Source of the DNA: Notolepis coatsorum
Taxonomy: Eukaryota > Chordata > Actinopteri > Aulopiformes > Paralepididae
Direction: 5' to 3'
Length of the DNA: 64,000 bases
Assembly: GCA_963971535.1 (NCBI GenBank)
Contig: OZ020586.1
Location: 77,962,412-78,026,411 of the forward strand
The notes below the pieces were generated by a model. The model worked only from the letters and a program-made list of their open reading frames with translations. It ran no database searches and was not told the origin of the DNA. The translations under genes were made by a program, and so were the position numbers. This document shows positions 19,301 through 64,000 of the stretch, one piece after another. Positions within the stretch are counted from its first letter, which is position 1. Each line of letters opens with the position of its first letter.

Positions 19301-19990
19301 TAGCTGGCTGAGGCCGTGCAGATCACAAAACCTACTGAATGACTTGAAGACGGGTGCATCTTTTCGTTGCATATCCGTGTTCCAGTCTCCAATAAGAATT
19401 TTGTCTACATCCTCAACTCCAGCTAAACACCCATCCAGTGTATCATAAAAGCCACTATGATCTGGCGGCCTGTAGATTGAGCCAACCAGTAGGGATTTCG
19501 CCCTTTCGAATAGGATTTCCACCCATACAGTTTCAATTGATTTATGATTCAGGTCATTTCTGTTGATGAATTTGGTGTCTTTGTGTATGTACATACAGAC
19601 ACCACCTCCATGTTTGTTCCTATCATTCCTGATTATTGAGTAGTTCTCAATCTCTATCTCTGGATCTTTTACAGAATCGTCAAGCTTAGTTTCTGAGAAG
19701 CACAGTATGTTTGCCTTACCATTTATGAATAATTGTTTGATTTCATCCAATTTGTTTTTTAAGCTGTTAATGTTAATGTGGAAAATGTTCAGTCCATTGG
19801 CGTTGGTTATTTCATTGATGTTGGCAGGTTCGAAGTATTGTTCGTTTGTGATCTGTTCCTCTGAGTGGGGCGGGGGGGCTTTGTTGTTGTGGGTGGGAAG
19901 GGGGGAGGGGGGGGTCGTGTCCCGCGCCGTTCTGGTACAACAAAGGACTGTTAGCTCTGCTGAGAGTGGCCCGTTCAGCCGAACGCACAA
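16337..19990 (-). mobile_element. LINE of the L2/CR1/jockey group, nearly intact
   Basis: Minus-strand non-LTR element. Its 3' end on the plus strand is 16337-16365, made of GATTGATTGAATTGATTG units; the 3' UTR is 16366-16881. It lies directly against the broken L2 copy ending at 16336, suggesting insertion into it. A 5'-truncated copy of its 3' UTR is at 31991-32360. The exact clade was not settled by eye. Confidence 0.85.
16882..19990 (-). pseudogene. LINE ORF2: endonuclease + reverse transcriptase, one frameshift
   Basis: From 19990 the frame reads an apurinic-type endonuclease (NIFHININSLKNK, FSETKLDD, GGGVCMYIH, SIYRPPD, IGDWNTDM, TTIDLILTS, LSDHYMIF), a basic linker, and RT blocks (NKATGHDNIPSKF, LHKKGSKLDPGNYRPVSIL, YEFQSGFRTSHST, LDLQKAFDTVNHSIL, GVPQGSILGPLLFLIY, FLFADDSALLVS, YLGSILEAN). 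At the T-run 17443-17451 (A-run on the coding strand) the frame slips by one. The true C-terminus then continues in the frame 17424-16882 (YRISSLVNKNTLKTLAGALI ... FKTSLKGHLRE). Apart from this single slip it appears open, so it is either a very young copy or a sequencing error in the homopolymer. Confidence 0.85.
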
Positions 19991-25192: not shown

Positions 25193-26866
25193 TCAACGGC
25201 GCCTGCCACCTCGCGCCGCTCGAGTCTGGCCACCCCGGGGAGCCCCGGAGGGACGGTAGGTTACAGTCTGCTGGACACGACGTTCCCTACCGTCTCCTCC
25301 GGTCTGGGATGGGCCGGCGGTGGCTGAAGCGTCGTTTCGTCTCCTAGCCCTCTTGGCAGGGCCAGCAGCGGCGGCGGGGGCAGTGGTAGCGGCGACGGAG
25401 ACAGCTCGACGTCGCGGAAGCCTTCTGCCCCCACCGGCAAGGACGGGAGGCGGAAAATGGGGTTGGAGGATGGATCTCTCCTCTGCCATCTCTCTGCATG
25501 TTGAGGTCATCAATAGCAGGGCCTTCCCGAACAGGCCAGCGTCGGAGAGGTCGGCCGTCAGAAGAGGGGCTCTCTTCTTCTCTGGTACACGGGCCTGCTC
25601 CAGCCAAAGGTGACGCTGGCCCAGGGTGGCCAGGGCGCGCACTTTACCCATGGCTATGGCTAGCACCTGGGAGAGGTGCAGCACAGCTCCCGCAGCCTGG
25701 GTGATCTGATCGCACCTCACCTCGTTCAGATCCGCGCCGCCCGTCATTATCCCCGATACAAATCTAGCCAGGTGGGCGATGTTAGATGCCGCAGCCAGCG
25801 ACTGTGTACCGGCGATAAATGACTGGTCACCCCAATAAGCCAATCGCCTAGCCGACCTCCCCTGGAGGACCGGCTTGCATAGGGGCTCCCACACCATATC
25901 CGGACAGAGGAGCGCGGCCATCGGATTGTCAAGCCGAGGTACGCCCTCCCCCATACCTTTGACCAACCCCGACACCCGCGTAACTGGTACGTAGGCGGGA
26001 GTCAGTCCCATGATGTTGGAGACCGCCTGGCCCCGACGAACATAGGCCCCCATCGATGGGAAAAATGGGTAGACAACGTCCACCCCTCTCACCGGGGGAC
26101 GCTGCCAGGGATGGCCTATGAGGTCATCAGGGACAGGAGCAGGCAATGGCTGCGGCAGCGGCACACCGTTTGCAGCGGCGGCTACCGCCATGAGCTCGGG
26201 AAACAAGGCCCGCAGTTCCCCCTGCGGACCCTCCTCCACCGACCCCGCATCCCTCGCATACAGCAGGCTGCGACTGGTCAAGGAGCCACAATCCGATGCG
26301 GCTGACAGTAGGGCATCCTGTTGATGAGGCCAAGGTGGTTCCCCGACATCCTCGAACAAGGCGCCCCGTGGAGCCATTTCCCCCCACCCCGGGGTCTCCG
26401 GAGGAGGGATACTCTCCTCCACGGGACCATCATACAAGAACCCGTCCGCCTCCTCCATGAAGTCTTCAGTTTCCATCAGAAATCCAGAGTCGGACGCGGC
26501 CCCGCTGGTCTCCAGCAATTCCCCAAACCCAGGCCGTTCGCGTCTGCACGCCACCATGTGACGACGTGAGCGAGCAGACGCAAAAAGTTTTCGTCGCAAA
26601 TCCCCTGGCTCTAAGACAATCCCCCGTTCATCAACGGGCGATTCCCCAGAAACAGAGGAACCAGAGTCGAGATCAGGCCATCGCCGGAGCGACGGCTCCG
26701 AACCCTCGGCTCGTCGGTGAGGAAAACTATCCACCGGCAGTCTCCCGGGCTGGGTCGGCAACCACGAGAGTGGCAACAGCCCAGCACCGGAACGCACGAC
26801 GGAGGCGGGAATGGAGAATCGGTGGTGAAGAGTAGGTCTAGCGGGTCTACTCTCCGCGGAATACAT
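25193..26866 (-). CDS. Gag-like protein of DIRS element
   Basis: 557 residues from the ATG at 26866. The N-terminal 200 residues are acidic, Pro/Ser/Gly-rich and low in structure. Around residues 360-470 lies a helical region ending with HLWLEQ...KKRAPLL...SDAGLFGKALLLM...REMAEER, a pattern known from DIRS-type ORF1/gag proteins (LWLxL...LLDAP...GLFGxAV). The C-terminal 90 residues are Arg/Gly/Ala-rich and probably bind nucleic acid. No zinc knuckle. The frame is open with GC-rich codons unlike the AT-rich flanks. It lies just inside one terminal repeat, the position of gag in DIRS. Function is inferred from the short motif and the architecture. Confidence 0.72.
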   Translation of the reverse strand: MYSAESRPARPTLHHRFSIPASVVRSGAGLLPLSWLPTQPGRLPVDSFPHRRAEGSEPSLRRWPDLDSGSSVSGESPVDERGIVLEPGDLRRKLFASARSRRHMVACRRERPGFGELLETSGAASDSGFLMETEDFMEEADGFLYDGPVEESIPPPETPGWGEMAPRGALFEDVGEPPWPHQQDALLSAASDCGSLTSRSLLYARDAGSVEEGPQGELRALFPELMAVAAAANGVPLPQPLPAPVPDDLIGHPWQRPPVRGVDVVYPFFPSMGAYVRRGQAVSNIMGLTPAYVPVTRVSGLVKGMGEGVPRLDNPMAALLCPDMVWEPLCKPVLQGRSARRLAYWGDQSFIAGTQSLAAASNIAHLARFVSGIMTGGADLNEVRCDQITQAAGAVLHLSQVLAIAMGKVRALATLGQRHLWLEQARVPEKKRAPLLTADLSDAGLFGKALLLMTSTCREMAEERSILQPHFPPPVLAGGGRRLPRRRAVSVAATTAPAAAAGPAKRARRRNDASATAGPSQTGGDGRERRVQQTVTYRPSGAPRGGQTRAARGGRRR

Positions 26867-36578: not shown

Positions 36579-37943
<1,365 letters not shown>

Positions 37944-38149
37944 CACAGGAAAAACTGGGGAGTCATTTTCCCAGAGTAATTATTACGGAGTTATTATTTT
38001 CCTCTCAAGTAGTCATATTTACTCCATTTGGGGCATAATCATTGCCTGTGGCCAATAGAGTGAGAGTAAAGTTCCAGAAGAGTTTCTATTGGAGTAATAC
38101 AGCATTGGTCACGCCTACTATCCATATAATTCCCAAAGGTGCCGACGCC

Positions 38150-38242
38150 ATCTTTCTCTCTCGCCAAGTCCTCGCTTCAAGCTCAGGTGCAGCAAGAGCG
38201 CAATACAGCGATATTTTCCTTCTCTTGGATGCCAAATACAAG
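38150..38242 (+). other. Probable non-coding first exon of the SAMD3-like gene
   Basis: Ends at a strong donor, ATACAAG|GTAAGA, at 38242/38243. The next matching acceptor is at 39585. The exon start is not defined. No in-frame start is required, because the next exon begins with ATG. Confidence 0.4.
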
Positions 38243-38305
38243 GTAAGATTATTATTATTATTTGTTAATTTATTAAACAGCAATGTGTGTAACTAATTTG
38301 CAACA

Positions 38306-39192
38306 TTACAGCTAAGCCACAGAGCCATCTATCACGATGTTCGCATGTTAGCTGCTATACGTTTGCACGCACGCTATTAAATAAACGTTTTACAGTTGTA
38401 TGGACAAGTATTCAATTATCAACAGTATTGCTATCAGGGACAGTGCACATTAATCAACATGTCGGTTTTCATGTAAAATGTATATGAGCTAGTGTATAGC
38501 CAGAAGCTAATTTCCACCTGTATAGGCCTGAGACCATACCTGTAGACCATGCCTGTAGGCTGTTGTTAAAAGTAGTGATATAACTATATCCATACAAAAA
38601 CTGACTTATTAAGAACATACAAGACAAGTAGACATAGTACAGGAGATGGAACAATTATATGTTACATGTTGGCGGTTTTTGCTGAAACGGTGGCAGAGAC
38701 AACGTGTGTTTTACTCTAAATAGAGTCACCGTACATTACAGCTAAGCCACAGAGCCATCTATCACGATGTTAGCATGTTAGCTGCTAGCACGCACGCTAT
38801 TAAATAAACGTTTTACAGTTTTATGGACAATAACTTAAGAACAGGTACGTCGGTGCAACACGAGTATTCAATTATCAACAGTATTGCTATCAGGGACAGT
38901 GCACATTAATCAACATGTCGGTTTTCATGTAAAATGTATATGAGCTAGTGTTAGCCAGAAGCTAATTTTCACCTGCATGCGGCTATACCTGTATAGGCCT
39001 GAGACCATACCTGTAGACCATGCCTGTAGGCTGTTGTTAAAAGTAGTGATATAACTATATCCATACAAAAACTGACGTATTAAGAACATACAAGACAAGT
39101 AGACATAGTACAGGAGATGGAACAATTATATGTTACATGTTGGCGGATTTTGCTGAAGAGACAACGTGTGTTTTACTCTAAATAGAGTCACG
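38306..39192. repeat. About 430-bp tandem duplication in intron 1
   Basis: Copy 1 38306-38735 and copy 2 38736-39192 both start ttacagctaagccacagagc and end near ctctaaatagagtcac. Copy 2 has a roughly 28-bp insertion near 38832-38860. Otherwise they are nearly the same. Confidence 0.93.
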
Positions 39193-39369
39193 TAAATTTG
39201 CCGCAATGTGCTGTAGGTTGACTGTTTTACTAGTGGTAAATGGACATAACAAGTTAATTTGACGCACTGTTCGGTTCAACAAGTGTTTATTTGAACCATT
39301 GTACTGGGTTGACTAATTTGTGTGTTCTGCCTCCATGTATAATATAATGGAAACTTGTGGAACTATCCT

Positions 39370-39480
39370 CACAGTAAATTTCACAGAGTAAATTTTACTC
39401 AAACTGAGTCAATTTGAGCCCAAGACGTGAGTAAAGTTTTACTCAGTTTGAGTAAAATGTACTCAGCGAAATTTACTGTA
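39370..39480. mobile_element. MITE with ends like the surrounding transposon
   Basis: 111 bp with inverted ends CACAGTAAATTTC / GAAATTTACTGTA. The internal arms TTTTACTCAAACTGAGT and ACTCAGTTTGAGTAAAA resemble the last 60 bp of the large element (complement of 50358-50417). Confidence 0.65.
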
Positions 39481-39585
39481 TGGTGCTTTTGTAATATTTT
39501 CTAATTGTAACACTCCTCATAATGCATGAGTTGTTGTGCCCTATATGTATCATCTTAGTAACTGTTATTATTTATTTGCCATCAG

Positions 39586-42500
39586 ATGCAGGCTGTACGT
39601 GTTAAACACGTTGACCGGCAGAAATTCATCTGTTTTGAGGGCCAATTGACCTTCACAACTTTTTTGGAGTGTGGTGAGTGAAACATTTTGCACAGCGTGC
39701 CGTTGGTTCTCAAAATGGCGTCCGCCTTGATAGTTAGGAACCAAATGGACCCTTATTGGTCTGTAACTCTGACTGTGTACAAATGGACCCCAACGTCCAT
39801 TGTACACCGTCAAGAGTTAAATTAACATTGATTTTACAATATAAATTGGGGTCCCAAAGATACAAATGCCATTAAATGGGTGCCCTTGGAATTAAAATGG
39901 TTGAGAATCACTGCTAGAGCCGTACAAATATTGTCTTATGGGGGTCCATGGCACATCTTTTCAAATGGGGGGTCTGTGGGCTAATTGTCAATTTGGGGGG
40001 TCCTTGACATGAAATGTTTGAGAACCACTGCCCTATGCAACAACATACTGGGTATCAGTTTAGGCTTTCCCTGCATGTTAATTTAAGCTGTAGGCCTACA
40101 GTACAAAGCACAATCCATTTTATTTAGGATAGAGTGAACCAATCAATGTCTTACACCCCTTCCTGACAGGCAGTGACGCGAGCGAGCGTGATTGCGAAAA
40201 TGATTAAAATGTATTCGTTTCAATCAGACTATCCTGACCTGCCGCGAGCGACAGCAAACTGAGCGGCGATGTCGTTCCCCCCTCAAATATTCGCTCGCTG
40301 TGTCTCTAGTTGAGCGATTACGCGGCCGAGTCACGCCCCTAAACACTTTTTATTGGTCAAGAATCGCAGGCTGCTTTGCCCCTGTGTGCTTCCAGGTAAC
40401 ACACACACAGACACACCCGGACACGCGCCGCCTCATATCAGGACAGTGTCGCGCACGATTTCGTCTCCAGTTCGCACGCTCGCTGCCTGTCAGGAACCGG
40501 TGTTAAGTATGTCAATTAAGGCTGTCAATCTTCCTCATATGATCACATTTTCAGTGGCTATTTTAATATCCCATTTTATGACATTTTAATTAATACAAAT
40601 TAAATAAATTGCACAACAGATTTATCAATAAGCTTGTGCAATCTTGTTTTGTCTATAGTTGCCAAGAAATTTGAAATTCCTAGTACCTTGGACTTAAAGG
40701 TCTATGATGACTCAAACACTGAAGTCGACGACGAGGCGTTTCAATTTCTTCTAAAAAAACCAGACCTGGGTGTGTTGGAGATTTGTTCACCCCAAGACTC
40801 AAATCCTGAAGGTGAGTTGCTAACATGGAGCCTTATAGCCTCATCCATACAGTCCTGGCTGCTTGAAGCCTTTTTACAACATTTCCGGGTTCCCGTTTTT
40901 TTCGCTCTGATTGGCCAGGTTATGTGACATGAGCGGCAATCGTGGGACGGCAAGTTTCTACACTGGTTAAGGGCACTCTTCGAAGTTGGTTAAGGTTAGA
41001 GTTTGTCTTAGAGCATGGCGATAGAACGCCAGGTAGTTTGCAGGCTGTTCGACGCGGAAATGGGCAAACACGCTATTGGGCGCACATGTCACATGACCTG
41101 GCCAATCAGAGCGCCGGAAACGCGGATGCGTTGTAAAAAGGCTACACGTGTCCTGGCTAACCTAAAATGTCACACAGGTACTGTGTATTTTTGTACTTTG
41201 AAATGATCTTTGTATATATGCCCAATGTAACGTGTGGATCCTTCCTAATCTAATGTGGTCTTTTTACATTACACTTGTCACAAACATTCCTATCTAATCA
41301 CACTTATATGTCTACATGATTGTTAGATTCAGTGAGGACCTCTGCAAGCAACTCCAGCAGCCAAAGCTCCGTTCTCAGCTCTGGTGCAGACAATGAGGGG
41401 GAGTCTGATGACACCATCATTTTGCAGTCTAGTCCTGCTCCAAGAAACGGTGCTGACCTGACTCGTATCACTCTGGTAAGCTTTGCATATGACTGTTTGA
41501 AATGGAGATGGTGACTCTGATAAAGGGGTAGCATGGGCATTGGGGATGGCCAAGTACAATTGGGGAGAAAATGGGGGTGGGGGGGGGGTCATGGTTTACA
41601 TTTGTCACCTTAACCCTTTCACTGCCGCACAACAGCAGGTTAACCCTTTCACTGCCGCACTACAGAAGGTTAACCCTTTCACTGCCGCACTACAGAAGGT
41701 TAACCCTTTACTATCACATACTGTACCACATACTGTATACCACATACTGGTACTAGTGTGGCAGTGAAAGGGTTAAATATACTTGGCCACCAAATGACTG
41801 TCTATCCATGTGTGTCCTCCCCCCCCCCCCCTTTTTACTCCCGCTTAGATGACTGAAAAGATTCTGAGGGACACAGCTGGAGGAGAGAGGATCATTGCCG
41901 ATTATGCTCGGACGAAAACCCTAACGGATACCAGAAGACGCGACATGGTGAAGATATTGGTTGCGCACATGGCAAAAGAGCATGGGTAATTATGTTATCT
42001 AAACATTACGCACCCAATACACATTTTTGGTTTTTACTAAGATCCTCCTTTTTGCAGAATTGGTAAATGATAAATGGTTATCCAAAGCGCTTTACATAGA
42101 TTGTGCAGAAGGCATTGGCACAGCAATACTTTTGTTTGGATCTCATACTTGTGTATGTGTGCACTGTAGGACGAGTCCTTCAAGGCGTGTTAAAGAAGAC
42201 TACGCAAAGGGCATCACTGCCTTATTCCCATACCTGGCCGATCCCCAGGGCAATTTGGGATATGTAAGTACATCAGGGAAAAGTGCAGAGAGACATTTCA
42301 TCGGCGACTCAGTGCATGTGTGTTCCTGTGGGTCGCCCATCTTGCGTGTGTGTTAAAACTGCATGACAAATAAAGACTTCTAGTCTAACAATTATTATGT
42401 TTATAGGTCATTCTTGTTATATAATTTCTAGGGATGTTCGATATTGGCTTTTTTTTACCGATATCCGATATACCGATATTGTCCAACTCTTTAATTTCCA

Positions 42501-45500
42501 ATACCGATATCAACCGATACCGATATATGCAGGGTTTCTCCCCCCCCCCCCCCCCCAAAAGGAATAATTTCAGGTAATTAACATTAGGCTACATATCTCT
42601 TGTCGTGGAATTAACACAACATTATGCATAACATTATCCAATCACATGCATGGTACATAAAACACCAACCCCATTACTCCTCACTTCTCTGGAATTGCTT
42701 AAAAGGGCTGTGCGGAGTACGATTTCAACTAAATATTTGTTAACATTTCTGTATGCTGACCATTTCTCCTAACCTCAACAATTTAAGAACCACAGATGTC
42801 CTACCTGTTGACCTTGATTTTAGCAATTCTTCAGAGAAGGGCATGTGTTAAGTTTTAAGGAGAGAAATAAACACATTTACACATGCCCATTTAAACCAAA
42901 TAACTTTTTTTTTTCCTCTTTACTTCTTGTGTTTTAGGAGCAGTATTACAATCCAGTAGATGGGAGTGGGTTTCTGGCATGGAGGGTGAAATCACTTCAA
43001 AAGATAGCATCAGAGGGACAAAAGAAGAGCCGTAATGTTCAGCCACTGATCGGTATGTAATTTTGATTGTCCCAGTCCACTGTTTATCTAGCAACTGTGA
43101 AGATGGATCATTATAGTAAATGCATATCACTGGAAAGTATTGCAGCAGTATGTGTGGTTTCTACACTGTTACAGGTGGTCCAAGTTCTGGCGACAGAGCC
43201 CCCTTCTCTGAGGAAAACCAGCTAACCACAGACACCCAGTTTCGTGAGGCCAGTGCACTGATGAAGCATACAACTGATGAAGCAATCATCAAGGAGAAGA
43301 TGAAACAGACCTTCACCCATCGCCAAGAAATGATGCACGACCCAATCAAGTCCTCTGAAATATTCACCACCTTTCCAAGATTCCTAGACATCACAGGAAT
43401 GGTATGTGGCTTGCATTAAAGTCTAACTGAAATAAAAAATGACCTTTTTAAACAATTTAGATCACATCCCTGGTCATAGGGTGAACCTATTTAATAGGGC
43501 TGTCCCTGACTAAGGATTTGGATGGTTGACTAGGATTGTTAAAAAAAAAAAAAAAAAAAAAATTTATCATTCCATTTGGGCTGTGGGGGGTGCTTAATGT
43601 CTGAAGGAGTCAACTGAAGGCTTCTTGTCCTCTGCAAAAGCATACAATTGGTCCACTGATGAAATCCTCTTTCAGTGCCTCTGTGCCTGTTTTCGTAGGC
43701 AGTTAGCCTCTGGTATGCCTGCCATTAGCGTTAGCCACGCTTCTATGCCTCTTTTCTTTTGAAAAAAATTATAATATATATATATATATTTTTATTTATT
43801 TTTTTATAATATTATATTCGACTAAGAGGTTGGCCAGTCGACTACGGCCCCTTTCGACCGATTAGTCGACTAATCGATTAATAGGGGTCAGCCCTACTAT
43901 TTAACAATGTATGACAAAAAAATTTCAACCATGTTTTATTCCATCTTGTCTGCAGATTGAGCAGGATTTCAGTCTGATGTTTGGTGATGACATCTCTGCA
44001 AAGTTCCTGGAGAAGTGGCCTACTTTCTGCAGGCAGAAAGTCCTTGAACAAAGCCGTGGCCTCACCCAGACCGGCGACCTTCAAGACCTGCTTCAGAATG
44101 CTGAATCCACAACAGACACAATAGAACTGAACAATGGTATGCTTGAATTAAAGGAATATAATAATGGAAGGGTGAATTGTTTTTTAAACAAATGGAAACA
44201 CAGCTTTTAGTCAAATGTATTTCTGATTTTTTTTATTTAATTTTTTGTATTTTTAGCATGGGACAGTGAAATGTCCTCCCTCTTGCTTCTTGTCCACCTC
44301 CTGCCACCATCACCTCAGGGACGCAACAAGAGACCGGGAAAGCTCTCAGCCAGAGAAGCCATTGACTCCCTTGTGAAGTTCATAAAGGTAAGGTTACAGT
44401 TGCCTATATTATCGGCCGATATTGGCATTCAAATGTGATATAGGAAAATATCGGTAAAAAAAAAATTAATTATTCTTTTTACATTTCTATAACCAACTTT
44501 TATTTACCCAGGCAAGTAAGAACAAATTCTGATTTTATTTATTGTCAAAAGTATGCATAATGTTATGTTAATTCCACAACAAGACATATGTAATGTTAAT
44601 TACCTGAAATTATTCAGTTTTTTGGGGGGGAAACCCTGCATATATCGGTATCGGTTGATATTGGTATTGGAAATTAAGAGTTGGACAATATCGGTATATC
44701 GGTAAAAAAGCCAATATCGAGCATCCCTAGTTACAGTTGAATTAAAGTATAAGAAGGATCACTGTTCTGTCTAGGGGTGCACGATATTGATTTGTTGACC
44801 CCGATATCGATACCAATAACTTTCTGCTCCTCAAGGTCGATACCGATAACCGATATATATATTTATTGTACTATAATTATAAATTTTTTTATGTATATTC
44901 CTGTAGTTTTGACCTAACCAGATTTATCATGACATGAGCGTTACTATATGAACAAAACAAAGCCAAGAGAACAGTTTTGACTCTTCAAATAAAGTGACTA
45001 TTTATTTTTCCAAATAAATATAATTTGAGTCGATCACAAAATTCACAATCCGTCAATGTCATTAACAATGTGTTTCCCTGAACAACTAAAAACCAACAGG
45101 TATTGTGCTTTGTCAGTAGGGATGCTGTTCACATTTGAACCGATACGGTACCGGTACCTGTGAATCGATACCGGTACCCAACGGTACCTTTTTCGGTACT
45201 TTAGTCTCTAAAAATGTAATCTACCTACCTCAGTTGTGAGAAGAAAAAAATCCAAACTTCAAATAACCACATTTTCGACCGTTTTTGGCTTGCCTTTGCC
45301 CCGACTGCTTTGTTGTTGAATCAAGTCAAATCCTAAATAAGCATATATAGTGCGTGTGAATGTTGACATGAAAAGAAAAAAGTAAAAAAAATATATATAT
45401 TTTTTTTATTATCAGAGCTGTCAATACTTTTATCGGGATGACGTCATAATTGCTGATATCGGCCTGATAATTATCGTGCATCCCTGATATTGACCTGCAT

Positions 45501-45898
45501 GATTGAAATCATGCAAAGACCACGGTTTGCAAACCGTGACTAATTTTAATAGCAAGACTAATGAAGTTCTCTTGTCACAGACTGGGACCAGTATCCAGGG
45601 GCATTTGGACAGCATCACGGAGAGCCTTCAACCCTATCTGCTTGCTGTGGGGACCCAGAGGAGTGTGATTCACAAGTACTTCATTGTGATTGACAAACAT
45701 GCAATCCCTTGTAAGTCACCAGACTCTCTTGCCTCTTTTGATGAGCTTTTCAAAGCTCATTTTGTCTTTGGTACCTCATACAACCGGGATCTGGCCAATA
45801 TGTACAACTTCTTGCAAACCGCCATTTACAAGATCGATGCTGCTACAACTAATGTCAACCCCAGGGTTAAAGAGATGAGGGCTCGGATGCTGCACTGA
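39586..45898 (+). CDS. SAMD3-like protein, ten coding exons
   Basis: Exons: 39586-39673, 40659-40811, 41327-41475, 41849-41985, 42170-42263, 42938-43052, 43175-43401, 43956-44136, 44257-44387, 45581-45898 (stop TGA). All nine introns are GT-AG and the phases join in frame, giving 530 residues. Residues 1-75 form a small PB1/ubiquitin-like domain (QKFICFEGQLTFTTFLECV, KKPDLGVLEI), followed by a Ser-rich linker. Then comes the conserved body of fish SAMD3-like proteins: GGERIIADYARTKTLTD, RRDMVKILVAHMAKEHG, EDYAKGITALFPYL, QDFSLMFGDDISAKFLEKWP, SLLLLVHLLPPSPQGR, GHLDSITESLQPYLLAVG, FIVIDKHAIPC and ELFKAHFVFGTSYNRDLANM. No SAM domain is seen. The function of this family is not established. Here it lies upstream of a transposase in the same orientation, so it may be the element's accessory protein. 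Confidence 0.83.
40847..41163. mobile_element. MITE in intron between coding exons 2 and 3
   Basis: Inverted arms: agcctttttacaac and cgctctgattggccaggtta (40876-40930) pair with ggccaatcagagcg and gttgtaaaaaggct (41100-41145). The inverted copy of this region at 48970-49400 lacks exactly this segment (cctcatcc joined to aaaatgtcac), which defines the insertion. Confidence 0.8.
41614..41772. mobile_element. piggyBac-like MITE with triplicated left end
   Basis: Left end CCCTTTCACTGCCGCAC, right end its complement (GTGTGGCAGTGAAAGGG), flanked by TTAA (41610-41613, 41773-41776), the piggyBac target. The 30-bp left end is repeated three times plus a partial fourth, each preceded by TTAA. Confidence 0.75.
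42058..42105 (-). mobile_element. SINE/LINE tail fragment
   Basis: On the minus strand GTAAAGCGCTTTGGATAACC, the GGATA-hairpin tail seen at 33740 and 33590, then AAATGAT-like units. Only the tail is recognisable. Confidence 0.5.
42429..42650. mobile_element. hAT-type MITE, partial
   Basis: Starts TAGGGATGTTCGATATTGGC. The same sequence, reversed, makes up 44540-44729. A C-run (42541-42556) interrupts it and its other end is missing. Confidence 0.55.
43495..43896. mobile_element. hAT-type MITE with 8-bp duplication
   Basis: TAGGGCTGTCCCTGACTAAG at the left; the right end closes with GGTCAGCCCTA. Exact 8-bp duplication CTATTTAA on both sides (43487-43494, 43897-43904), the hAT signature. Confidence 0.88.
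44401..44729. mobile_element. hAT-type MITE
   Basis: Ends ATCGAGCATCCCTA on the right, inverted relative of 42429-42650. Flanked by GTTACAGT at 44393-44400 and 44730-44737. Confidence 0.7.
44772..45486. mobile_element. hAT-type non-autonomous element, with nested repeat
   Basis: Left TAGGGGTGCACGATATTG, right ATTATCGTGCATCCCTGA. AT-rich interior. A nested piece at 45118-45210 carries repeated GGTACC/CGATAC motifs. No transposase. Confidence 0.65.
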
Positions 45899-45908
45899 TT
45901 TCTTTTTT

Positions 45909-46050
45909 ATACTGAGAGGATATTTTATCTCGGGCCTCTGATGCTGCACAGACTTTTGATACTGAGAAGATATTTTATCTTGAGGCCTCTGATGCTGCAC
46001 AGACTTTTGATACTGAGAAGATATTTTATCTTGAGGCCTCTGATGCTCCA
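45909..46050. repeat. Three tandem 50-51-bp units between the two genes
   Basis: The unit tactgagaagatattttatc...ctctgatgctgcacagactt occurs three times between the SAMD3-like stop and the transposase start. No AATAAA is present in this gap. Confidence 0.9.
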
Positions 46051-46065
46051 GTGTTTTTTGATAAG

Positions 46066-48498
46066 ATGTTGTGTTTCATTTGCAAAAACTCTCAGGCAAA
46101 TGCCAATTCACTGATGAGGCACTTAAGGATGATCCACGGACTTTGTTCAGGAAGGACACTTCGTCTTAAATGTGGTCAGCCTGGTTGTTTACATGTCTTT
46201 TGCACTTTTTCTGGGTTTCGAAAGCATCTTAAAGCACGTCATCAACCATGTGATGATCCTGGTGAAGGCCGCTCTACAGCTGAACATTTAGCTGAAAGTT
46301 ATGTTGATGACTTTCCATCAGGCAGTGCCCCTTCTGACCCAGTCCTTCCAGTCCTTCTTAATAATAGTCTTGTAGACAGCTGTGCTGCAACAGTAGCTGA
46401 ACTTAAAGTGGCAGGTGTAGGTGAAACAATAATCAACTCTTTGGTAACTTCAATGGAAGTGATTGTTGATGATATCCATAATCAAGCAAAACAATATGTG
46501 AAGCAGTGTCTATCTTTACAGGAACCTATCAAAAGTGAGGTTGAGTGTAAAATTGATCAGTGTTATGAAGAAATTGAAAATCCCTTTTGTATCTTAAATT
46601 CTGAAACTAAGAGAAGGCAATATTTTACAGAGAAGTGGGGAAGGGTAGACCCAGTTGAATATGTCCTTGGTACAAGATTTGATACCCTGCGCAATCGGAC
46701 TACTGGAACTTATGATCAGGCTGTTGTTACTGATAAATGTGTTTATATCCCAATTTTGAAAACATTAGACTTTATTTACAAACACCCTAATATAAAAGAG
46801 ATGATGCAGAGTGATTCCAGTTTAAGAGAAGATCTTCTTAATGACTTGTGTGATGGAGAGTATTTCAAGAGTCATCCTCTATTTTCAAAACAGAAGCATG
46901 CAATTCAGGTGCAGCTTTTCTATGATGATTTTGAATGCGCGAATCCGTTGGGGAGTAAAAAGGGAATACATAAATTAGGAGCAATCTATTTCACCTTGCG
47001 TAATTTTTCTCCAAAGTACAACTCAATTCTGCTTAATATTCATTTGGTCGCTTTATTCCATGCCCAAGACATTAAAACACATGGCTTTTCTAAAATACTT
47101 GCTCCACTTGTGGAAGATATTAAAATACTGGAGAAGGATGGAATTAAGGTCCCATTGTATGATCAGCCAGTGTATGGAACTATTGTCCAAGTTACAGGTG
47201 ACAACCTTGGTATTCACGGTTTGTTTGGTTTCGTAGAATCATTCAGTGCCAGATATTGTTGCCGCTTTTGTCTTGCTGAGAAAGAGGACTTTCAGACGGA
47301 ATTCAAAGAAGATTCACCCAAGATAGTTATGCGAACTCGAGCACTTCATGCAGAACACTGCCACACAATGGAGACTACTATTGGTCTTCCCTATGTGATG
47401 GGAGTTAAACGTTCTTGCATTCTAAATTCCTTGCAGTACTTCAATACATGTGACAATTTCTCTGTCGATATTATGCATGATATCTTGGAGGGCGTGGCAC
47501 AATATGAAATGAAACTGCTAATACTACACTTGATTAAAAACTACACAACATCAAAGGAAATAGACTTGAGAATTAAGAGCTTTAACTATGGTTACCTGGA
47601 ACAAAACAACAAGCCACCTGCATTGAAGTTAGTAGAGACCTCAAATGACTTGGGGTTAAATGCAATCCAATCTTGGTGTTTACTTCGCAATCTACCACTT
47701 ATCTTTGGAGACTTGGTTTGTCCAAATGATCAACACTGGTATTTGCTTCTGCTGTTGCTTCAAATAGCAGATATTGTATTTTCTCCCAGGTTATCAACTG
47801 GCATTACTATTTATTTAAAACACTTGATTGCAGAGCACCACGGGTTATTCAAGCATTTGTTTCCCAACAGGAGGCTACTACCAAAGCATCATTTTATGGT
47901 GCACTATCCTACATGTATTCGTAAAATTGGACCACTTTTGCATGTCTGGTGCATGCGCTATGAAGCGAAGCATAATTTCTTTAAAAAACAACTAAAAAGC
48001 TTCAAAAATATAACTAAAACGTTGGCAAAGAAACACCAAAGTCAAGTAGCATACAATTGGCAGACATTTGATCCCAACAGACTGGTGCTTGGTCCAAGTA
48101 AAATGGTAGCATTAAATGTGATGGACAGAGGCTGTGAGATAGCGGAGACTCTTCAGGTACCAAGTGACACCAAGGTGTTAAATGTTAGATGGGCCAAACA
48201 CCATGGAAATATGTATCGTCCAGGTTTAGTTGTTTGCCTTAAAGTTCTTAGTGAGGTTCCAGTTTTTCACAAAATCCACCGTGTTGTTCTTAAAGATGAG
48301 AGGTTACTGTTGTTTACATTTGCACTACAAACCGTGTCTCTGGATGACCATTTTTATGCATTTAAAGTTGTGTGTACTACAGATGGACCTCATGTAGTTG
48401 ATGTCAAAGAGCTTTTGTTTTACAAAGCATTCGATATACAGATGTCATACAGTGATGACGATTCAAGCTCATTTATTGTTCCATACTGTTTCCTGTGA
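46066..48498 (+). CDS. tnp2-like (CACTA/EnSpm) transposase with two C2H2 fingers
   Basis: 810 residues, intronless, from the ATG at 46066 (an earlier GTG in frame at 46051 is not needed). Two C2H2 zinc fingers lie at the N-terminus: CFICKN...HLRMIH (about 3-23) and CGQPGCLHVF...HLKARH (about 37-60). The core has YDDFECANPLGSKKG (about 285), TGDNLGIHGLFGF (about 376), RYCCRFCLAEKED (about 395), the DIMHDILEGV motif (about 468) and HVWCMRYEAKHNFFKK (about 630), the arrangement of tnp2-type transposases of the CMC superfamily. The proposed acidic catalytic residues are present but were not aligned. The frame is fully open. It lies 167 nt downstream of, and co-oriented with, the SAMD3-like gene; the two may share a transcript, as TNPA and TNPD do in maize. 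Confidence 0.8.
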   Translation: MLCFICKNSQANANSLMRHLRMIHGLCSGRTLRLKCGQPGCLHVFCTFSGFRKHLKARHQPCDDPGEGRSTAEHLAESYVDDFPSGSAPSDPVLPVLLNNSLVDSCAATVAELKVAGVGETIINSLVTSMEVIVDDIHNQAKQYVKQCLSLQEPIKSEVECKIDQCYEEIENPFCILNSETKRRQYFTEKWGRVDPVEYVLGTRFDTLRNRTTGTYDQAVVTDKCVYIPILKTLDFIYKHPNIKEMMQSDSSLREDLLNDLCDGEYFKSHPLFSKQKHAIQVQLFYDDFECANPLGSKKGIHKLGAIYFTLRNFSPKYNSILLNIHLVALFHAQDIKTHGFSKILAPLVEDIKILEKDGIKVPLYDQPVYGTIVQVTGDNLGIHGLFGFVESFSARYCCRFCLAEKEDFQTEFKEDSPKIVMRTRALHAEHCHTMETTIGLPYVMGVKRSCILNSLQYFNTCDNFSVDIMHDILEGVAQYEMKLLILHLIKNYTTSKEIDLRIKSFNYGYLEQNNKPPALKLVETSNDLGLNAIQSWCLLRNLPLIFGDLVCPNDQHWYLLLLLLQIADIVFSPRLSTGITIYLKHLIAEHHGLFKHLFPNRRLLPKHHFMVHYPTCIRKIGPLLHVWCMRYEAKHNFFKKQLKSFKNITKTLAKKHQSQVAYNWQTFDPNRLVLGPSKMVALNVMDRGCEIAETLQVPSDTKVLNVRWAKHHGNMYRPGLVVCLKVLSEVPVFHKIHRVVLKDERLLLFTFALQTVSLDDHFYAFKVVCTTDGPHVVDVKELLFYKAFDIQMSYSDDDSSSFIVPYCFL

Positions 48499-48587
48499 TT
48501 TAAAAAAGGAAAAGAGAAAATCACTAAGCTCTTGAACTATTGCACTGGGGATGAACACTATTAGTTTTCTTTTATTTCTTTGGGGTG

Positions 48588-48945
48588 AACAGATGCTGCT
48601 GTCACTTTATATAGAGGCCAAAATGTAATTGATCGATTACTCTCCCCATGAAGCCTTAATTGAAGTCATGGTGATTTCTTTTTGTTGCATTCCTGAGCCA
48701 ATAATTTGATGACTGGCTTGAATTATTGGCTCAGGAATGCGACAAACAAACAAATCTCCATGAATTCAAGGATTCATGGGGTGTGTAATTGGTAGATTTC
48801 TTTTTTTGGGTGAGCTATCCCTTTTTAAAAGGGTGCAGATGCTGCTGTCACTTTACAGAGGCCAAAATGTAATTGTCTTTTATTTATGACCTTTTTTCTA
48901 TCGATTACTCTCCCCATGAAGCCTTGAAGTCATGGTGATTTTTGT
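48588..48945. repeat. Duplicated 3' flanking segment with a hairpin
   Basis: gatgctgctgtcacttta ... ccccatgaagcc ... gtcatggtgatt occurs at 48591-48676 and 48838-48943. Between them, 48685-48744 is an inverted repeat of about 23 bp (cattcctgagccaataatt / aattattggctcaggaatg). Confidence 0.85.
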
Positions 48946-48969
48946 ATATAATGGAGTTGTTTGCAGAGG

Positions 48970-49400
48970 GGCTCACTGAATCTAACAATCACGTAGACAT
49001 ATACCAAGTGTGATTAGCAAGAGAGGAATGTTTGACAAGTGTAATGTAAAAAGATTAGGAAGGATCCACACCAAGCAAGTTCTTCCTCAGACGTGTTTTT
49101 TTTTTTTTTTTACTATGTTACATTACATTGGGCGTATAGAAACAAAGATCATTTCAAAGTACAAACATATACAGTACCTGTGTGACATTTTGGATGAGGC
49201 TAGGCTCCATGTTAATAAGCAACTTGGGGTGAACAAATCTCCAACACACCCATGTCTGGTTTCTTTAACTGAAACGCCTCCTTGTCGACTTCAGTGTTTT
49301 AAGTCATCATAGACCTTTAAGTCCAAGGTACTAGGAATTTCAAATTTCTTGGCAACTGAAAACAAAGATTGCACAAGCTTATTGATGAATCTTATTTTAT
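48970..49400 (-). pseudogene. Inverted copy of exon 2 to start of exon 3 of the SAMD3-like gene
   Basis: The reverse complement reads, in order, the exon 2 acceptor, most of exon 2 (KKFEIPSTLDLKVYDD recognisable), shortened intron, and the exon 3 acceptor with its first ten bases. Roughly 90 percent similar by eye to 40625-41337, lacking the 317-bp MITE and with small deletions plus a T-run at 49098-49111. Confidence 0.9.
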
Positions 49401-49687
49401 TAATGACCTTTTTTTCTTTCTATCGATCGCCCCTTGAAGTCATGATTCTCACATGCTGTTGTAAAACTGTTTGCATCCCAACTGAAACGCCTCCTTGTCG
49501 ACTTCAGTGTTTTAAGTCATCATAGACCTTTAAGTCCAAGGTACTAGGAATTTCAAATTTCTTGGCAACTGAAAACAAAGATTGCACAAGCTTATTGATG
49601 AATCTTATTTTATTAATTTTTTTTTCTATCGATTGCCCCTTGAAGTCATGATTCTCACACGCTGTTGTAAAACTGTTTGCATCCCAA
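49267..49687. repeat. Tandem duplication holding antisense exon 2 twice
   Basis: Unit 1 49267-49479 and unit 2 49480-49687 both start aactgaaacgcctccttgtc and end near tgtttgcatccca. Each carries about 95-125 bp antisense to exon 2. Confidence 0.93.
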
Positions 49688-49708
49688 AGGATATGCCTGC
49701 ATGTTGCA

Positions 49709-49714
49709 AATAAA
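49709..49714 (+). promoter_or_regulatory. First AATAAA downstream of the transposase gene
   Basis: In a base-by-base reading of 48499-49708 no earlier AATAAA was found on the plus strand. This is therefore the likeliest poly(A) signal of the transposase, and perhaps also of the SAMD3-like transcript. Confidence 0.5.
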
Positions 49715-49793
49715 AGTGCATTGTTAAATACTGATTTCTGCTTTGCCCCCGTTTATTTTAAATGTATTATTCCAGAGTAAATTATTATTTAAT

Positions 49794-50200
49794 TCTATAT
49801 TGAGTGAAATATGATATTCTATATCGAGTGAAATCTATTCTATATTGAGTGAACTACAACTCCATATTGAGGGAATTACAACTCTATATTGATTAAAATA
49901 CCACTCTATATTGAGTGAAATATGATATTCTATATCGAGTGAAATCTATTCTATATTGAGTGAACTACAACTCCATATTGAGGGAATTACAACTCTATAT
50001 TGATTAAAATACCACTCTATATTGAGTGAAATATAACTTTAAGTATCTCTATATTGAGTGAAATATAACTTAAAATATCTCTATATTGAGTGAAATATAA
50101 CTCTATTGAGTGAAAATATAACTCTATATTGATTAAAATACCACTCTATATTGAGTGAAATATAACTTAAAATATCTCTATATTGAGTGAAAAATAACTC
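49794..50200. repeat. Subterminal array: 17 copies of a TCTATATTGAGTGAA-like motif
   Basis: Units of about 19-30 bp; variants TCTATATCGAGTGAA, TCCATATTGAGGGAA and TCTATATTGATTAAA. Units 1-5 are duplicated as units 6-10 (111-bp period). Position and repetition recall the TNPA-binding sites near CACTA ends. Confidence 0.9.
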
Positions 50201-50419
50201 TATAGATGTTAGAGTTGTTTTTACTTTATGCTAAATGGAGTAAGTTGGTATTTTGTAGAGTTAAATGTTAACACTAAATGGAGTAGAAATAACTCTGAAG
50301 ATTTAACTCTGTGACAAGAGTCATTTTCACTCTATCTGGAGTCGGAGCCAATACTGTCTTTTTGGGAGTAAAATTTTACTCAATTTGAGTAAATTTGACT
50401 CTGCGAATTTTCCTGTGTA

Positions 50420-59415: not shown

Positions 59416-62400
59416 TCATAGGGTTGTAGGGTCATGGTCATCATCGATTGTGTCTGGGAGTCGAGGCAGTTCTATGAGCCTCGCCACGGGACGGGTGTAA
59501 GTGCGACCCTGGACGAGCACTTCAGCTGCTCGGACCTTGCCGTCGGCACCGGTGATCACTTTGCTTACGCGGCCGGCCGGCCACATAGCTCTGGGCAGTG
59601 ATTGATCAATAATCATGACGACTGTTCCTTCTGTCAAATTGTCTCTCTCCTTTACCCACTTCTGGCGGGTCTGTAGAGACGGTAGGTAGTGCAGTAGGAA
59701 ACTGTTCCAAAACTTGTCGGCTAATACTTGGCTGTACCTCCACATTCGTCGGCCGTTCGCTTCTTCAGGCCGGTACATTGTCTGGGGTAATGCAGGATCT
59801 AGCCGCCCCATCAGGAGTGTGTTGGGGGTAACTGGGTCGATATCCGCCACATCACTGGAGACATATCCGAGGGGCTTCGAGTTAAGTACTCCCTCAATCT
59901 CCGTGAGGACTGTCATTAGGACTTCTTCCGCCACAGTCTGGGCCCCAAGTACTGCGTACAGGGCTGTCTTTATGGAGCGCACTTCTCGTTCCCAAGTGCC
60001 ACCGAAGTGGGGTGCGTTTGGGGGGTTGAATTGGAAATCAACCTGTGCTGGAGCGAGGTGGGTCTTAAGTTCTGGGCCCATAGCTTGGAAGCTCTCTCTC
60101 AGCTCTCTTTCGCCGCCTTTGAAGTTTGTCCCATGATCGGACAATAGGGTAGACGGTCTTCCTTTCCGTGATGTGAATCTACGGAAGGCCATAAGGAATG
60201 AGTCTGCGCTCATGGTCGGGAGAAGCTCGATGTGTATCGCTCTGGTGGTCATGCATTTGAATACAATACCCCACCGCTTCTCGGTTCCTCTTCCTTTCTT
60301 TATGTGCAGCGGGCCAAAGCAGTCCATACCCGTTGAGTGGAATGGCTTGTCACCGATTCGGAGGCGACATGGAGGAAGGTCAGCCATCCTTGGTATGCTG
60401 GGCTGCGCGCGCCACTTGCGGCAGTCTAGACATGTTCGCTGGAAGCGTCGTACCGCCTCTCTTCCTTGTAGGATCCAGTAACGACGTCTGATTTCCGCGA
60501 AGACTCTTTCTGCTCCTGCGTGATGTACATCCTCATCGTATTTCTTTATAATCAGCTCTGTGACCTTGTGTCGGCTGTTCAATACGATCGGGTATTTAAT
60601 GTCATCCGGTAGATTGGGGGCTCTGCGTAGGCGACCACCCACTCTGATGAGGGTATGAGCGTCGCTCTCGGGGGCCAGATGAATTAATCTGCTGTCGGAT
60701 GGGACGGGCTTTCCTCCCTGTAGACAGGCCAATTCATCGGGGAACGAGTCTCTCTGGGCTCGCTGCAGTAGAAGCAATTCTGCTTCCTCGTAGTTAGCTG
60801 CTGACATATCAGCGGGGGACTTGCACTCCGGGTGGTACCGCAGGAATGTTCTTTGTTGTGCACTCTCTATGGACGTGCAATCGTCTATGTTAGGGTCGGT
60901 GGAGGCTACGGTGCTCAATCCACAGAACACAGACTTCTTATTTTCCACCTCCTCTGGACTTGCTTCCCTCGGGATAGGCATGGGCCACTGTCCTTCCGGG
61001 AGTCTTAGGAATGCGGGGCCGTCACTGTAGACATTGCGACGGGTGAGGTCATCCAGGGGCATCCCCCGGGTGATGACGTCAGCTGGGTTCTGTTTTGTAT
61101 CAACGTAGCGCCACTCTGTTTCTCCGGTTAACTCTTCGGTTAAGTCTTGAATCTCGGTGACTCTGACTCCCACGAAGACTTTGTACTTGCATGAGTCCGA
61201 TTTGATCCAGGCGAGTACCGTCGTGGAATCTGACCACAGGATTGTTCTAGACACCGGTATGGTGAGCTCACGTTGGATGAGCGTGGCTAGGTGCGCTCCG
61301 GCTAGGGCTGCGCAGAGCTCTAGACGTGGGATAGATTGTTGCTTGCGTGGGGCTATTCTCGAGCGGGCGAGGACAAATGCTGTGTAGATCTCTCCCCCCC
61401 TTTCTTGGGCCCGCAAGTAGGCTACTGATCCGTATGCGACCTCTGAGGCGTCACTGAAGACGTGTAAGTCCATTTTACATGTCCCTGGCCTCACCGTGGG
61501 TGGGAAGTAGCTTCGGCGCATATTAACGCCTGGGAGTGAGTGGAGCTCCATCTCCCACTCTCTCCAGGTGGATGCAAGGTGTGCGGGAATGGGGTCGTCC
61601 CAGCCCTGGTCCTTGTCCCACAATGCTCGTACAATCATTTTTGCCCTGGTGGTGTACGGTAGAATACATCCTAGCGGGTCATATTGTCGGGCGAGTGTTG
61701 TGTACACACTCCGTCTGGTGGTCGGCGCCGCCGCCGGCCTTCCCTGCTCCGTAGTCAGGGGCTTGTGTCTGTAGTGAAGCGAATCTGTTTTGAATCGCCA
61801 CACCAATCCCAGGGTCATCTCCTGGGCTTCTCCCGGGATTGTAGCCATCCAGGTCTCGCTGCTGGCTGCCTTGTCCTCGGAGGAGAGGCTGCGCAGTACT
61901 TGCGGATCGCTGCTGGCCCACTGCCTGAGATCAAAGCCGCCTTTGATCAATGAGGCGCAGAGTTTAATCAGGAGAGCCTCGGCTTCTTCCTGGGTTGAAA
62001 GGCTTTGTAGACAGTTGTCTACGTAGAAGCTGTTCTTTACGCTGTGTCGGACCTCTTCGTCCGCTGCTGGGTCCTCTGCTACATGTTTCTGTAGTGCAAA
62101 TGTAGCACAGCAGGGGCTGCACGTCGTTCCGAAGGGGAGGACTTCCCATTGGTAGATGGCTGGGTGCTCATCTCCTGGCTTCTCTCTCCATAGGAACCGT
62201 AACAGGGGCTTGTCCGCCTCTACTAATCTCACCTGCAGGAACATTCCTTTAATGTCCCCGCTGATGGCCACCTTTTCCTGGCGGAAGCGGAGTAGAACGC
62301 CGAGTAGGGAGGGGCCGAGTGTGGGACCGGGCAGTAACTCTTTATTCAGATTTTGGGATCCGATCTGGTAGCTGCAGTTAAATACTATGCGGTCTTTACC

Positions 62401-64000
62401 GTTGTGATGGACCTTGTGGTGAGGCACGTACCACGATTCAGTGGTCTGGTCAGCCTCTTTAATGTCCATCTTTGTGACGTGTCCCGCTGTGATGAGCTTC
62501 TCAATCTCAGCGCGGTATACACTCTCTTGGGCGGGGTTCTTGGCTAAGCGCCGCTCCGTGTTCAGCAGGTACCGTTCTGTGGCGTCTGTCTTGGCGTGGA
62601 AAGTAGGCATTCCTTCTCGCCGCAGGAGTGGCGTGGCGTATCTCAACACGCCGTTGACCGGGACTCTCTTGGTCCCTGTCTCGAGGAGGTGAATGGCGTA
62701 AATGTCATCTTTAGAGCGAATGTCTTTCTTTCCGTTCTTAAAGGGCATTTGTTCCAAGGTCCATAGCCGCTCTACGTGTTGCAGGAGTGCGGTTTCTCCC
62801 TCTGTGACTCGGGAGTGGAGACATCTAGTGGCTGTACTTCGGTTGAGAGATTTGGCGAGCGGGCCTTGGAGAGTCCATCCCAAACGGGTCTCGACTGCTG
62901 CAGGACAGCCTCGGGGTCCGGTATGAACCCGGTCTATCGGGACAATGAGGTCTGCATGGTCGGAGCCTATCAACAGGGTCGGCATAGCATTGTCTATGAG
63001 CGGGATCGGTAACTTGCGCAGATGTGCATATTTCTCCATCAGCTTGGCGACGGGGTATGTGTACCGCGACAGTCCTATTTCTTGGCTGGTGAAAGCGTCT
63101 GCAATCTGGTACCGTCGCTCAGGCTGGCCGCTTGCTGCGATAGAGAATGAGATATTCTCGCCCTTTATCGTCTTCAAATCTCGTCTTATTGTCCGAATTG
63201 TCATTTGGGTTTCGCTTCCCCGCAGCCCTAGCTGGGCCGCAGCGGAGGCGAGCAGTAGGGTCTTCTCTGACCCGTCATCGAGGACGGCGTAAGTGTCCAG
63301 GACTTTATTCTGGTAGCTTAGTGTCACACGCACTACTTTTAGGAGTACTCGGGCTCCACTGCTGCTGGCGGGATCGATGTACATGACGCTCGCTTTGCGG
63401 CTGGATGGTGCGGGTGAAGGGCGCCGTCTGTTACTGTCGTGAAGTATGTCCAGATGGGCTCCATCGCACTTGGTGCACCTTTTCTTTAAGCGGCATTCGG
63501 CTGCCATGTGTGAGCGCGCACAGCGAAAGCAGCGCTTGTTGGACTTTATCCATTGACTTGCTTCCTCCGCGTTCAGCTTGGGGAAGGAGTCACATTGCGC
63601 TAGCCAGTGTTCTTTCTCACAGTAGGGGCACACTATCTTCCACTTCTCCGTTCTGGAGGGGGTACTGTGGCTCCTGCTGCTCGGTACTGACTCCGATTGG
63701 TGCATCACAGTCACCGATCTTCTTCCATCATTTAGTCGTCTGGTTCCTTCTCTGGAGCCAGGGGTGCTCCGTCCGAATGTATCTAGCCGTAGGCTGCTGA
63801 CTTCTCTCGCCAGGAAGTCTGCTAGATCGAGGAGGTTCGGTTCGGGGCCATTCGGGTCTCGGTGGTCCCTCTGTCGCCTAAAACGCTCCTGACGAGCGGG
63901 CGGCAGCTTCTCCAGAATCCTTTCCACATTTGAGTTGGCGTAAAGTTCATGCCTCCCCTTCTCTCTTTGCGCTCCCAACATCCCTACCAGGGACTGCACT
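59416..64000 (-). CDS. BEL/Pao gag-pol polyprotein (C-terminal 1527 residues)
   Basis: Open to the window edge. In order (numbering from the edge): zinc knuckles CPYCEKEHWLAQC and CFRCARSHMAAEC (about 124-175), protease-like TYAVLDDGSEKTLL (about 235), RT with ISGDIKGMFLQV (about 590) and FYVDNCLQSL (about 660), RNase H with VFSDASEVAYGS, RLELCAALAGA and WSDSTTVLAWI (about 850-930), integrase zinc part ending CLDCRKW (about 1190), integrase core GMDCFGPL, LLSDHGTNFKG and WEREVRSIK (about 1220-1340), and a C-terminal basic domain. This PR-RT-RH-IN order with YVDN at the RT centre fits fish BEL elements. No internal stop was seen, so the copy may be intact. Confidence 0.9.
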   Translation of the reverse strand, partial: VQSLVGMLGAQREKGRHELYANSNVERILEKLPPARQERFRRQRDHRDPNGPEPNLLDLADFLAREVSSLRLDTFGRSTPGSREGTRRLNDGRRSVTVMHQSESVPSSRSHSTPSRTEKWKIVCPYCEKEHWLAQCDSFPKLNAEEASQWIKSNKRCFRCARSHMAAECRLKKRCTKCDGAHLDILHDSNRRRPSPAPSSRKASVMYIDPASSSGARVLLKVVRVTLSYQNKVLDTYAVLDDGSEKTLLLASAAAQLGLRGSETQMTIRTIRRDLKTIKGENISFSIAASGQPERRYQIADAFTSQEIGLSRYTYPVAKLMEKYAHLRKLPIPLIDNAMPTLLIGSDHADLIVPIDRVHTGPRGCPAAVETRLGWTLQGPLAKSLNRSTATRCLHSRVTEGETALLQHVERLWTLEQMPFKNGKKDIRSKDDIYAIHLLETGTKRVPVNGVLRYATPLLRREGMPTFHAKTDATERYLLNTERRLAKNPAQESVYRAEIEKLITAGHVTKMDIKEADQTTESWYVPHHKVHHNGKDRIVFNCSYQIGSQNLNKELLPGPTLGPSLLGVLLRFRQEKVAISGDIKGMFLQVRLVEADKPLLRFLWREKPGDEHPAIYQWEVLPFGTTCSPCCATFALQKHVAEDPAADEEVRHSVKNSFYVDNCLQSLSTQEEAEALLIKLCASLIKGGFDLRQWASSDPQVLRSLSSEDKAASSETWMATIPGEAQEMTLGLVWRFKTDSLHYRHKPLTTEQGRPAAAPTTRRSVYTTLARQYDPLGCILPYTTRAKMIVRALWDKDQGWDDPIPAHLASTWREWEMELHSLPGVNMRRSYFPPTVRPGTCKMDLHVFSDASEVAYGSVAYLRAQERGGEIYTAFVLARSRIAPRKQQSIPRLELCAALAGAHLATLIQRELTIPVSRTILWSDSTTVLAWIKSDSCKYKVFVGVRVTEIQDLTEELTGETEWRYVDTKQNPADVITRGMPLDDLTRRNVYSDGPAFLRLPEGQWPMPIPREASPEEVENKKSVFCGLSTVASTDPNIDDCTSIESAQQRTFLRYHPECKSPADMSAANYEEAELLLLQRAQRDSFPDELACLQGGKPVPSDSRLIHLAPESDAHTLIRVGGRLRRAPNLPDDIKYPIVLNSRHKVTELIIKKYDEDVHHAGAERVFAEIRRRYWILQGREAVRRFQRTCLDCRKWRAQPSIPRMADLPPCRLRIGDKPFHSTGMDCFGPLHIKKGRGTEKRWGIVFKCMTTRAIHIELLPTMSADSFLMAFRRFTSRKGRPSTLLSDHGTNFKGGERELRESFQAMGPELKTHLAPAQVDFQFNPPNAPHFGGTWEREVRSIKTALYAVLGAQTVAEEVLMTVLTEIEGVLNSKPLGYVSSDVADIDPVTPNTLLMGRLDPALPQTMYRPEEANGRRMWRYSQVLADKFWNSFLLHYLPSLQTRQKWVKERDNLTEGTVVMIIDQSLPRAMWPAGRVSKVITGADGKVRAAEVLVQGRTYTRPVARLIELPRLPDTIDDDHDPTTL

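Follow-up and report, generated by a model that had tools for sequence, protein, structure and literature searches.

We describe a complete transposon of 12,474 bp (37944–50417, plus strand) in a window of 64,000 nucleotides, the whole stretch of DNA analyzed here, from contig OZ020586.1 of the fish Notolepis coatsorum. We propose that it is a two-protein EnSpm/CMCT cut-and-paste element that was very recently mobile, in which a protein with a predicted PB1 domain serves as a TNPA-like accessory to the transposase, and we put the probability of this reading at about 0.7. The protein is encoded by a spliced first gene that lies upstream of the transposase gene in the same orientation. A two-protein transposon fits the pairing of the two genes in all copies examined, the history that they appear to share in other fish, and the presence of subterminal repeats at each end of the element.

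The element is bounded by an exact inverted match of 10 bp, CACAGGAAAA, whose only exact copies in the window lie at 37944–37953 (plus strand) and 50408–50417 (minus strand); inward of these repeats, only GAGT/ACTC motifs are common to both ends. Read across the element with its flanks included, the sequence is ...TCTCTA/CACAGGAAAA...TTTTCCTGTG/TACCCTG..., where slashes mark the borders, and TA stands directly outside the element on the left (37942–37943) and on the right (50418–50419). The matching ends and the TA on each side had been noted in the preliminary description of this DNA, which also called for sites lacking 37944–50417. From 50418 onward the host site is another dispersed repeat, with 174 candidates, the best 40 of which scored 96–100% identity. 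We compared 11 paralogues of this right-flank repeat, the window itself excluded, on both strands. Four of them (L064, L066, L072, and L074) align through the insertion point, including the window's left flank, and hold no element and a single TA at the junction. The bases of the site are unbroken in five others (L065, L067, L070, L071, and L073), in which the left variant differs, and the alignments of L068 and L069 at the site are not decisive. The uninterrupted paralogues with one TA are the empty sites that had been sought, and they establish that 37944–50417 was inserted here and that 2 bp of the target were duplicated.

Searches of the 3.42 Gb genome yielded 529 candidates for the transposase and 266 for exon 10, the last of the first gene. 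The best 40 of each were scored; all 40 transposases were full length with 100% identity after rounding, and all 40 last exons were 100% identical. Combining the two lists gave 57 distinct places, the window counted in, and all 57 hold both genes at near-equal spacing. Spacing was 501 nt in 22 of the 23 pairs visible in both lists and 552 nt in the other, and when 260 bases were fetched at the partner gene's expected position in the remaining places, the partner was present in 34 of 34 (98.5–100%). Ten more copies were fetched, all of which contain exons 2–10 of the first gene and the transposase frame; exon 1 was not wholly within the fetched piece in C24c and C6, which have an extra insertion of ~2.5 kb, or in C4, which has a run of N. 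The first-gene frame is open in 7 of the 7 fetched copies with all exons, and C44 lacks the splice acceptor of exon 8. C24c and C6 (L021 and L025) form a second subfamily, in which the first gene contains the extra 2.5 kb, close to window position 41753, and the 246-bp units at the 3' end are more numerous.

Six of the fetched copies with all exons, each two-ended, and the window's copy differ pairwise at 7–21 positions per 11,570 gap-masked columns (0.06–0.18%; 43 variable columns), indicating that the family moved recently. These seven copies range in length from 12,275 to 13,163 bp, with much of the difference in repeated stretches. Equal 2-bp flanks surround the window's element and copies C45, C44, C43, C24a, and C21, four of the six with TA and two with TG. 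C32 was left out of this count, its right end entering a (TG)n array with a base changed in the last hexamer, and C24b, C4, C24c, and C6, in which both ends are not visible, fall outside it. Among 20 further copies sampled with fixed end windows, 11 were two-ended, ten of these with equal TA flanks. In total, 17 of the 31 sampled copies were two-ended and 16 of these 17 had equal 2-bp flanks (14 TA, 2 TG), for which the binomial P is ~1e-18 under the dinucleotide frequencies of the window; none of 11 pairs checked matched over 3 bp. The 13 left flanks in the second set of copies were all different, indicating separate insertions. The pairing in 57 of 57 places, the shared ends and duplications, and the empty sites bear out the earlier view that both genes lie inside one transposon, and neither of the outcomes named there as refuting it, a first gene without a transposase or copies ending elsewhere, was encountered among the best-scoring copies seen.

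The transposase gene (46066–48498, plus strand) is a single open frame of 810 amino acids whose ATG lies at 46066, 167 nt past the stop codon of the first gene. It encodes two N-terminal C2H2-like zinc fingers (residues 3–59; 46072–46242), a RAG1/Transib-like catalytic core (residues 97–674; 46354–48087) with D287, D379, C399xxC402, H608x4H613, and E633, and a BAH-like domain predicted from a structure model (residues 671–805; 48076–48480), by which the C-terminus is probably a BAH domain. The structure model of the transposase also matches the RAG1 core, with 10–14% identity in the best rows. The catalytic D and E were assigned from motif order, and D379, C399xxC402, H608x4H613, and E633 are kept in 41 of 41 relatives. 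The CMCT clade (EnSpm/Mirage/Chapaev/Transib) is described as marked by a C(2)C and an H(3-4)H motif placed between the second D and the last E, by mostly 5'-CA..TG-3' termini, and by target duplications of 2–5 bp (PMC12730594). The fish element has both motifs, termini of the form CACAGG...CCTGTG, and the 2-bp duplication of 16 of 17 copies. The description of the transposase as tnp2-like fits at the family level, where 19 of the 41 relatives matched Pfam PF02992 (Transposase_21) with E ≤ 0.1, the best of them with 7.9e-06, and P0088 is annotated with it; the window's own protein gave no match to PF02992. Searches of the PDB with the single transposase sequence found no relatives, and those with a transposase profile returned zinc-finger and other weak matches only, at E 0.012 or worse.

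The first gene consists of ten coding exons between 39586 and 45898 on the plus strand, with AG/GT borders, which join into an open frame of 530 amino acids. Exon 1 (39586–39673) contains the ATG and the start of a PB1/CIDE-N domain, the remainder of which is in exon 2 (40659–40811); these are followed by exons 3 (41327–41475), 4 (41849–41985), 5 (42170–42263), 6 (42938–43052), 7 (43175–43401), 8 (43956–44136), and 9 (44257–44387), and by exon 10 (45581–45898), which encodes a conserved C-terminal alpha/beta region and the stop. The splice borders, the open frame, and the distance to the co-oriented transposase all agree with the ten-exon gene of the preliminary description, whose label for the product, SAMD3-like, is not supported: no SAM family was found among 44 relatives at E ≤ 0.1, the shown names of 120 listed matches (some nameless) do not include SAMD3, and the N-terminus is modeled as PB1/CIDE-N, with the ubiquitin-like fold and the basic and acidic faces of such domains. 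The predicted layout of the protein is a PB1/CIDE-N head, a helical body, and a conserved alpha/beta C-terminus. Sequence searches of the PDB gave nothing convincing for this protein. Among the papers listed, no title or abstract opening connected CACTA elements with a SAMD3-like or PB1 protein; the topic of the one paper found there to join SAMD3, the sterile alpha motif, and a transposable element is sex markers. A viral source was rejected: no relatives turned up when viral_contigs was scanned twice with the protein alignments, and the model of the first protein had no match at E ≤ 0.001 in a viral fold library, where the best rows were mostly ubiquitin-like.

GAGT/ACTC motifs are concentrated near both ends of the element, with 8 in the first 400 bp (37944–38343, plus strand) and 36 in the last 874 bp, compared with 2.07 per 400 bp in between. 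Together with tandem repeats at 49794–50199 (plus strand), with a unit of about TCTATATTGAGTGAAATACAAC, this enrichment substantiates the subterminal array reported earlier. A third GAGT/ACTC peak (11) coincides with a nested palindromic insertion at 39370–39480, which is made of inverted-repeat pairs, resembles a miniature inverted-repeat transposable element (MITE) and also the element's own right end, and is possibly a short member or relation of the transposon family. Another MITE-like inverted-repeat insertion (40864–41146) occupies part of the intron that follows coding exon 2. It has no match in an inverted copy of the exon 2–3 region of the first gene (48952–49605, minus strand), which is partly built of tandem units whose number varies between copies. 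That inverted copy corresponds to about 40618–41356, intron pieces included, in pieces of 87–91% identity and one exact 20-base piece, and a transcript extending to 49709 could pair with the first gene in a long hairpin, which might dampen the element.

The 167-nt spacer between the two genes (45899–46065, plus strand), mostly a 51-bp tandem repeat (45904–46047), contains neither AATAAA nor ATTAAA, and the first AATAAA past the first gene's stop codon lies behind the transposase, at 49709–49714 (plus strand), making one transcription unit plausible from the sequence; an ATTAAA is present within the transposase frame. The end of a possible 5' non-coding exon, with an AAG/GTAAGAT donor, was read by eye at 38190–38242 (plus strand), its left border being arbitrary.

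En/Spm depends for its transposition on TNPA, which attaches to the subterminal repeats, and an analogous partner role fits the first protein. In the mechanism that we infer, the transposase, with its zinc fingers, RAG1-like DDE core, and BAH-like tail, would cut and join at the CACAGG ends and insert the element at TA or, more rarely, at TG. The first protein, possibly made from a shared transcript, would self-assemble through its PB1 domain, bind the GAGT/ACTC subterminal repeats, and present both ends to the transposase, which is TNPA's job in maize En/Spm. Both proteins would be needed, and the element would still be mobile today. A competing explanation that keeps the first gene as an integral part of the transposon is that the encoded protein acts against silencing by the host, or on the promoter as a regulator, instead of building the transposition complex. 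TNPA itself is described as reactivating a methylated promoter and repressing an unmethylated one (PMC1636069), the PB1/CIDE-N fold serves interactions of many kinds, and zinc fingers of the transposase itself could bind the ends. However, the pairing in all examined copies and the dense motifs at both ends fit end-binding at least equally, and we consider a role in silencing or promoter control rather unlikely.

Evidence from other fish bears on how long the first gene has belonged to the transposon. In Synaphobranchus kaupii the first gene and a partial transposase have consecutive locus tags (SKAU_G00134240 and SKAU_G00134250) and lie on contigs of equal length; tags are also consecutive for the transposase and the first gene of Coilia grayii (ACEWY4_006697 and ACEWY4_006698); a second first-gene protein of Coilia, ACEWY4_006170, has no neighboring partner among the listed matches. 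Pieces of transposase, of 104, 41, and 34 residues at 80–83% identity, occur in three of the 120 listed first-gene proteins, respectively P0228 of Polypterus senegalus, P0233 of Mugilogobius chulae, and P0218 of Onychostoma macrolepis; such mixed gene models are typical of gene prediction across neighboring genes, and alternative splicing would give them too. In five pairs (the window and those of Synaphobranchus, Coilia, Corythoichthys, and Sarotherodon), the identity of one gene rises with that of the other (r 0.89), a value that only the true order reaches among 120 permutations. The expectation that the two genes would be adjacent in other fish was thus supported in five genera, through locus tags and gene models and not by reading synteny directly, but not in Metynnis. 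This adjacency suggests that the first gene is probably a long-standing gene of the transposon, neither a chance neighbor nor a recent capture, and that the family of fish genes now called uncharacterized probably belongs to the machinery of the transposon itself.

The preliminary description had also offered a captured host gene as a reading of the first gene, which would then be a passenger of a transposon that needs only its transposase. Its ten coding exons, set against the single frame of the transposase, would suit such an origin, as would the listing of its relatives in several fishes as uncharacterized genes in their own right. We nevertheless regard capture as very improbable, given that the first gene accompanies the transposase in every one of the 57 places and that neighboring tags or mixed models occur in five other genera, including Polypterus, at first-gene identities of 44–72% to the window protein. 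That the genes are chance neighbors between coincidental ends, which the shortness of a 10-bp inverted repeat might by itself allow, is ruled out by the many separate insertions that share these ends and duplications, the constant pairing, and the empty sites.

Salmonids, pike, and Dallia have proteins of ~850–900 amino acids with C2H2 zinc fingers (P0209, P0221, P0224, and similar). In the three inspected, the helical block of the first protein is present twice, and the proteins look like one conserved gene that may be a domesticated relative.

Several observations weigh against the two-protein reading. The window's first protein matched no Pfam family at E ≤ 1, no DNA-binding fold was recognized in it, and its body gave no convincing fold match in the PDB; the lists of fold matches were filled by the PB1 domain, and the lack of a match for the body is therefore no evidence for a new fold. 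That GAGT/ACTC is the binding site of the first protein is our guess from its enrichment. The copies are the best scoring and not a random sample, in which decayed, deleted, and single-gene copies are under-sampled; likewise, the transposases of the ten fetched copies have no codon changes, which reflects their choice by transposase identity, and we make no claim of selection. One two-ended copy (L075/L076) has unequal flanks, TG and TA, and five of the 20 end-sampled copies have one end and four have neither. Neighboring tags occur in two of the three species tagged in both protein lists, Metynnis hypsauchen lacking them, and the mixed models could join the first gene to a different transposase fragment nearby. 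Finally, of the five pairs whose gene identities correlate, those of Corythoichthys and Sarotherodon are linked only by contigs of equal size.

If the two-protein reading is true, it assigns a function to fish genes of a widespread family now annotated as uncharacterized and warns that such genes may need masking as transposon genes in annotation. An element present in many near-identical copies in a vertebrate would also allow direct testing of two-protein CACTA logic and of the link between CACTA transposases and RAG1, and as a candidate active vertebrate DNA transposon it may become a genetic tool. A fuller picture, which we advance tentatively and consider less probable than its opposite, is of a still-jumping vertebrate CACTA-type element with a RAG1-like transposase, a chromatin-reading BAH tail, and an obligate PB1 partner that polymerizes on the subterminal repeats, in which PB1-bearing uncharacterized fish genes are mostly transposon machinery and some, such as the salmonid, pike, and Dallia zinc-finger fusions, have been domesticated. 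The window is rich in transposons; long frames resembling Gypsy, LINE, DIRS-like, and BEL/Pao retroelements were recognized by eye at 8813–13198, 17255–19990, 25193–26866, and 59416–63999, all on the minus strand.

Plant-type CACTA elements (En/Spm, Tam1, CAC1) have a terminal CACTA pentamer and a 3-bp target duplication, whereas the fish element ends in CACAG(G) and has a 2-bp duplication. It resembles maize En/Spm in its two element proteins, subterminal repeats, CA...TG ends, and possible single transcription unit; the likeness of the first protein to TNPA is one of proposed role, and the first protein has no Pfam match. In En/Spm itself, TNPA and TNPD are described as both essential and made from one unit (PMC1636069). 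Relative to RAG1, ProtoRAG (BbRAGL), and Transib, the fish transposase has low identity (10–14% in the best rows), a BAH-like tail, and a zinc-finger head, and its partner is a PB1 protein instead of RAG2. Fungal EnSpm-like elements, compared by their description (PMC12730594), share the TA duplications but carry a TET/JBP dioxygenase, and the fish element also uses TG. EnSpm families are reported in zebrafish, some of them expressed (PMC9341512, PMC3485254). Animal CACTA elements with 2-bp duplications are on record from SmTRC1 of Schistosoma mansoni onward. SmTRC1, a CACTA element of the TRC type with a 2-bp duplication in 7 of 14 copies and a transposase relative in Danio rerio, is similar in its Transposase_21-type transposase, its 2-bp duplication, and a second product for which a TNPA-like role was proposed (PMC1636069). 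The authors of that report found the second product of SmTRC1 to have no similarity to sequences of other animal or fungal elements, whereas the corresponding gene of the fish element is separate, has ten exons, encodes a predicted PB1 domain, and has relatives across ray-finned fish.
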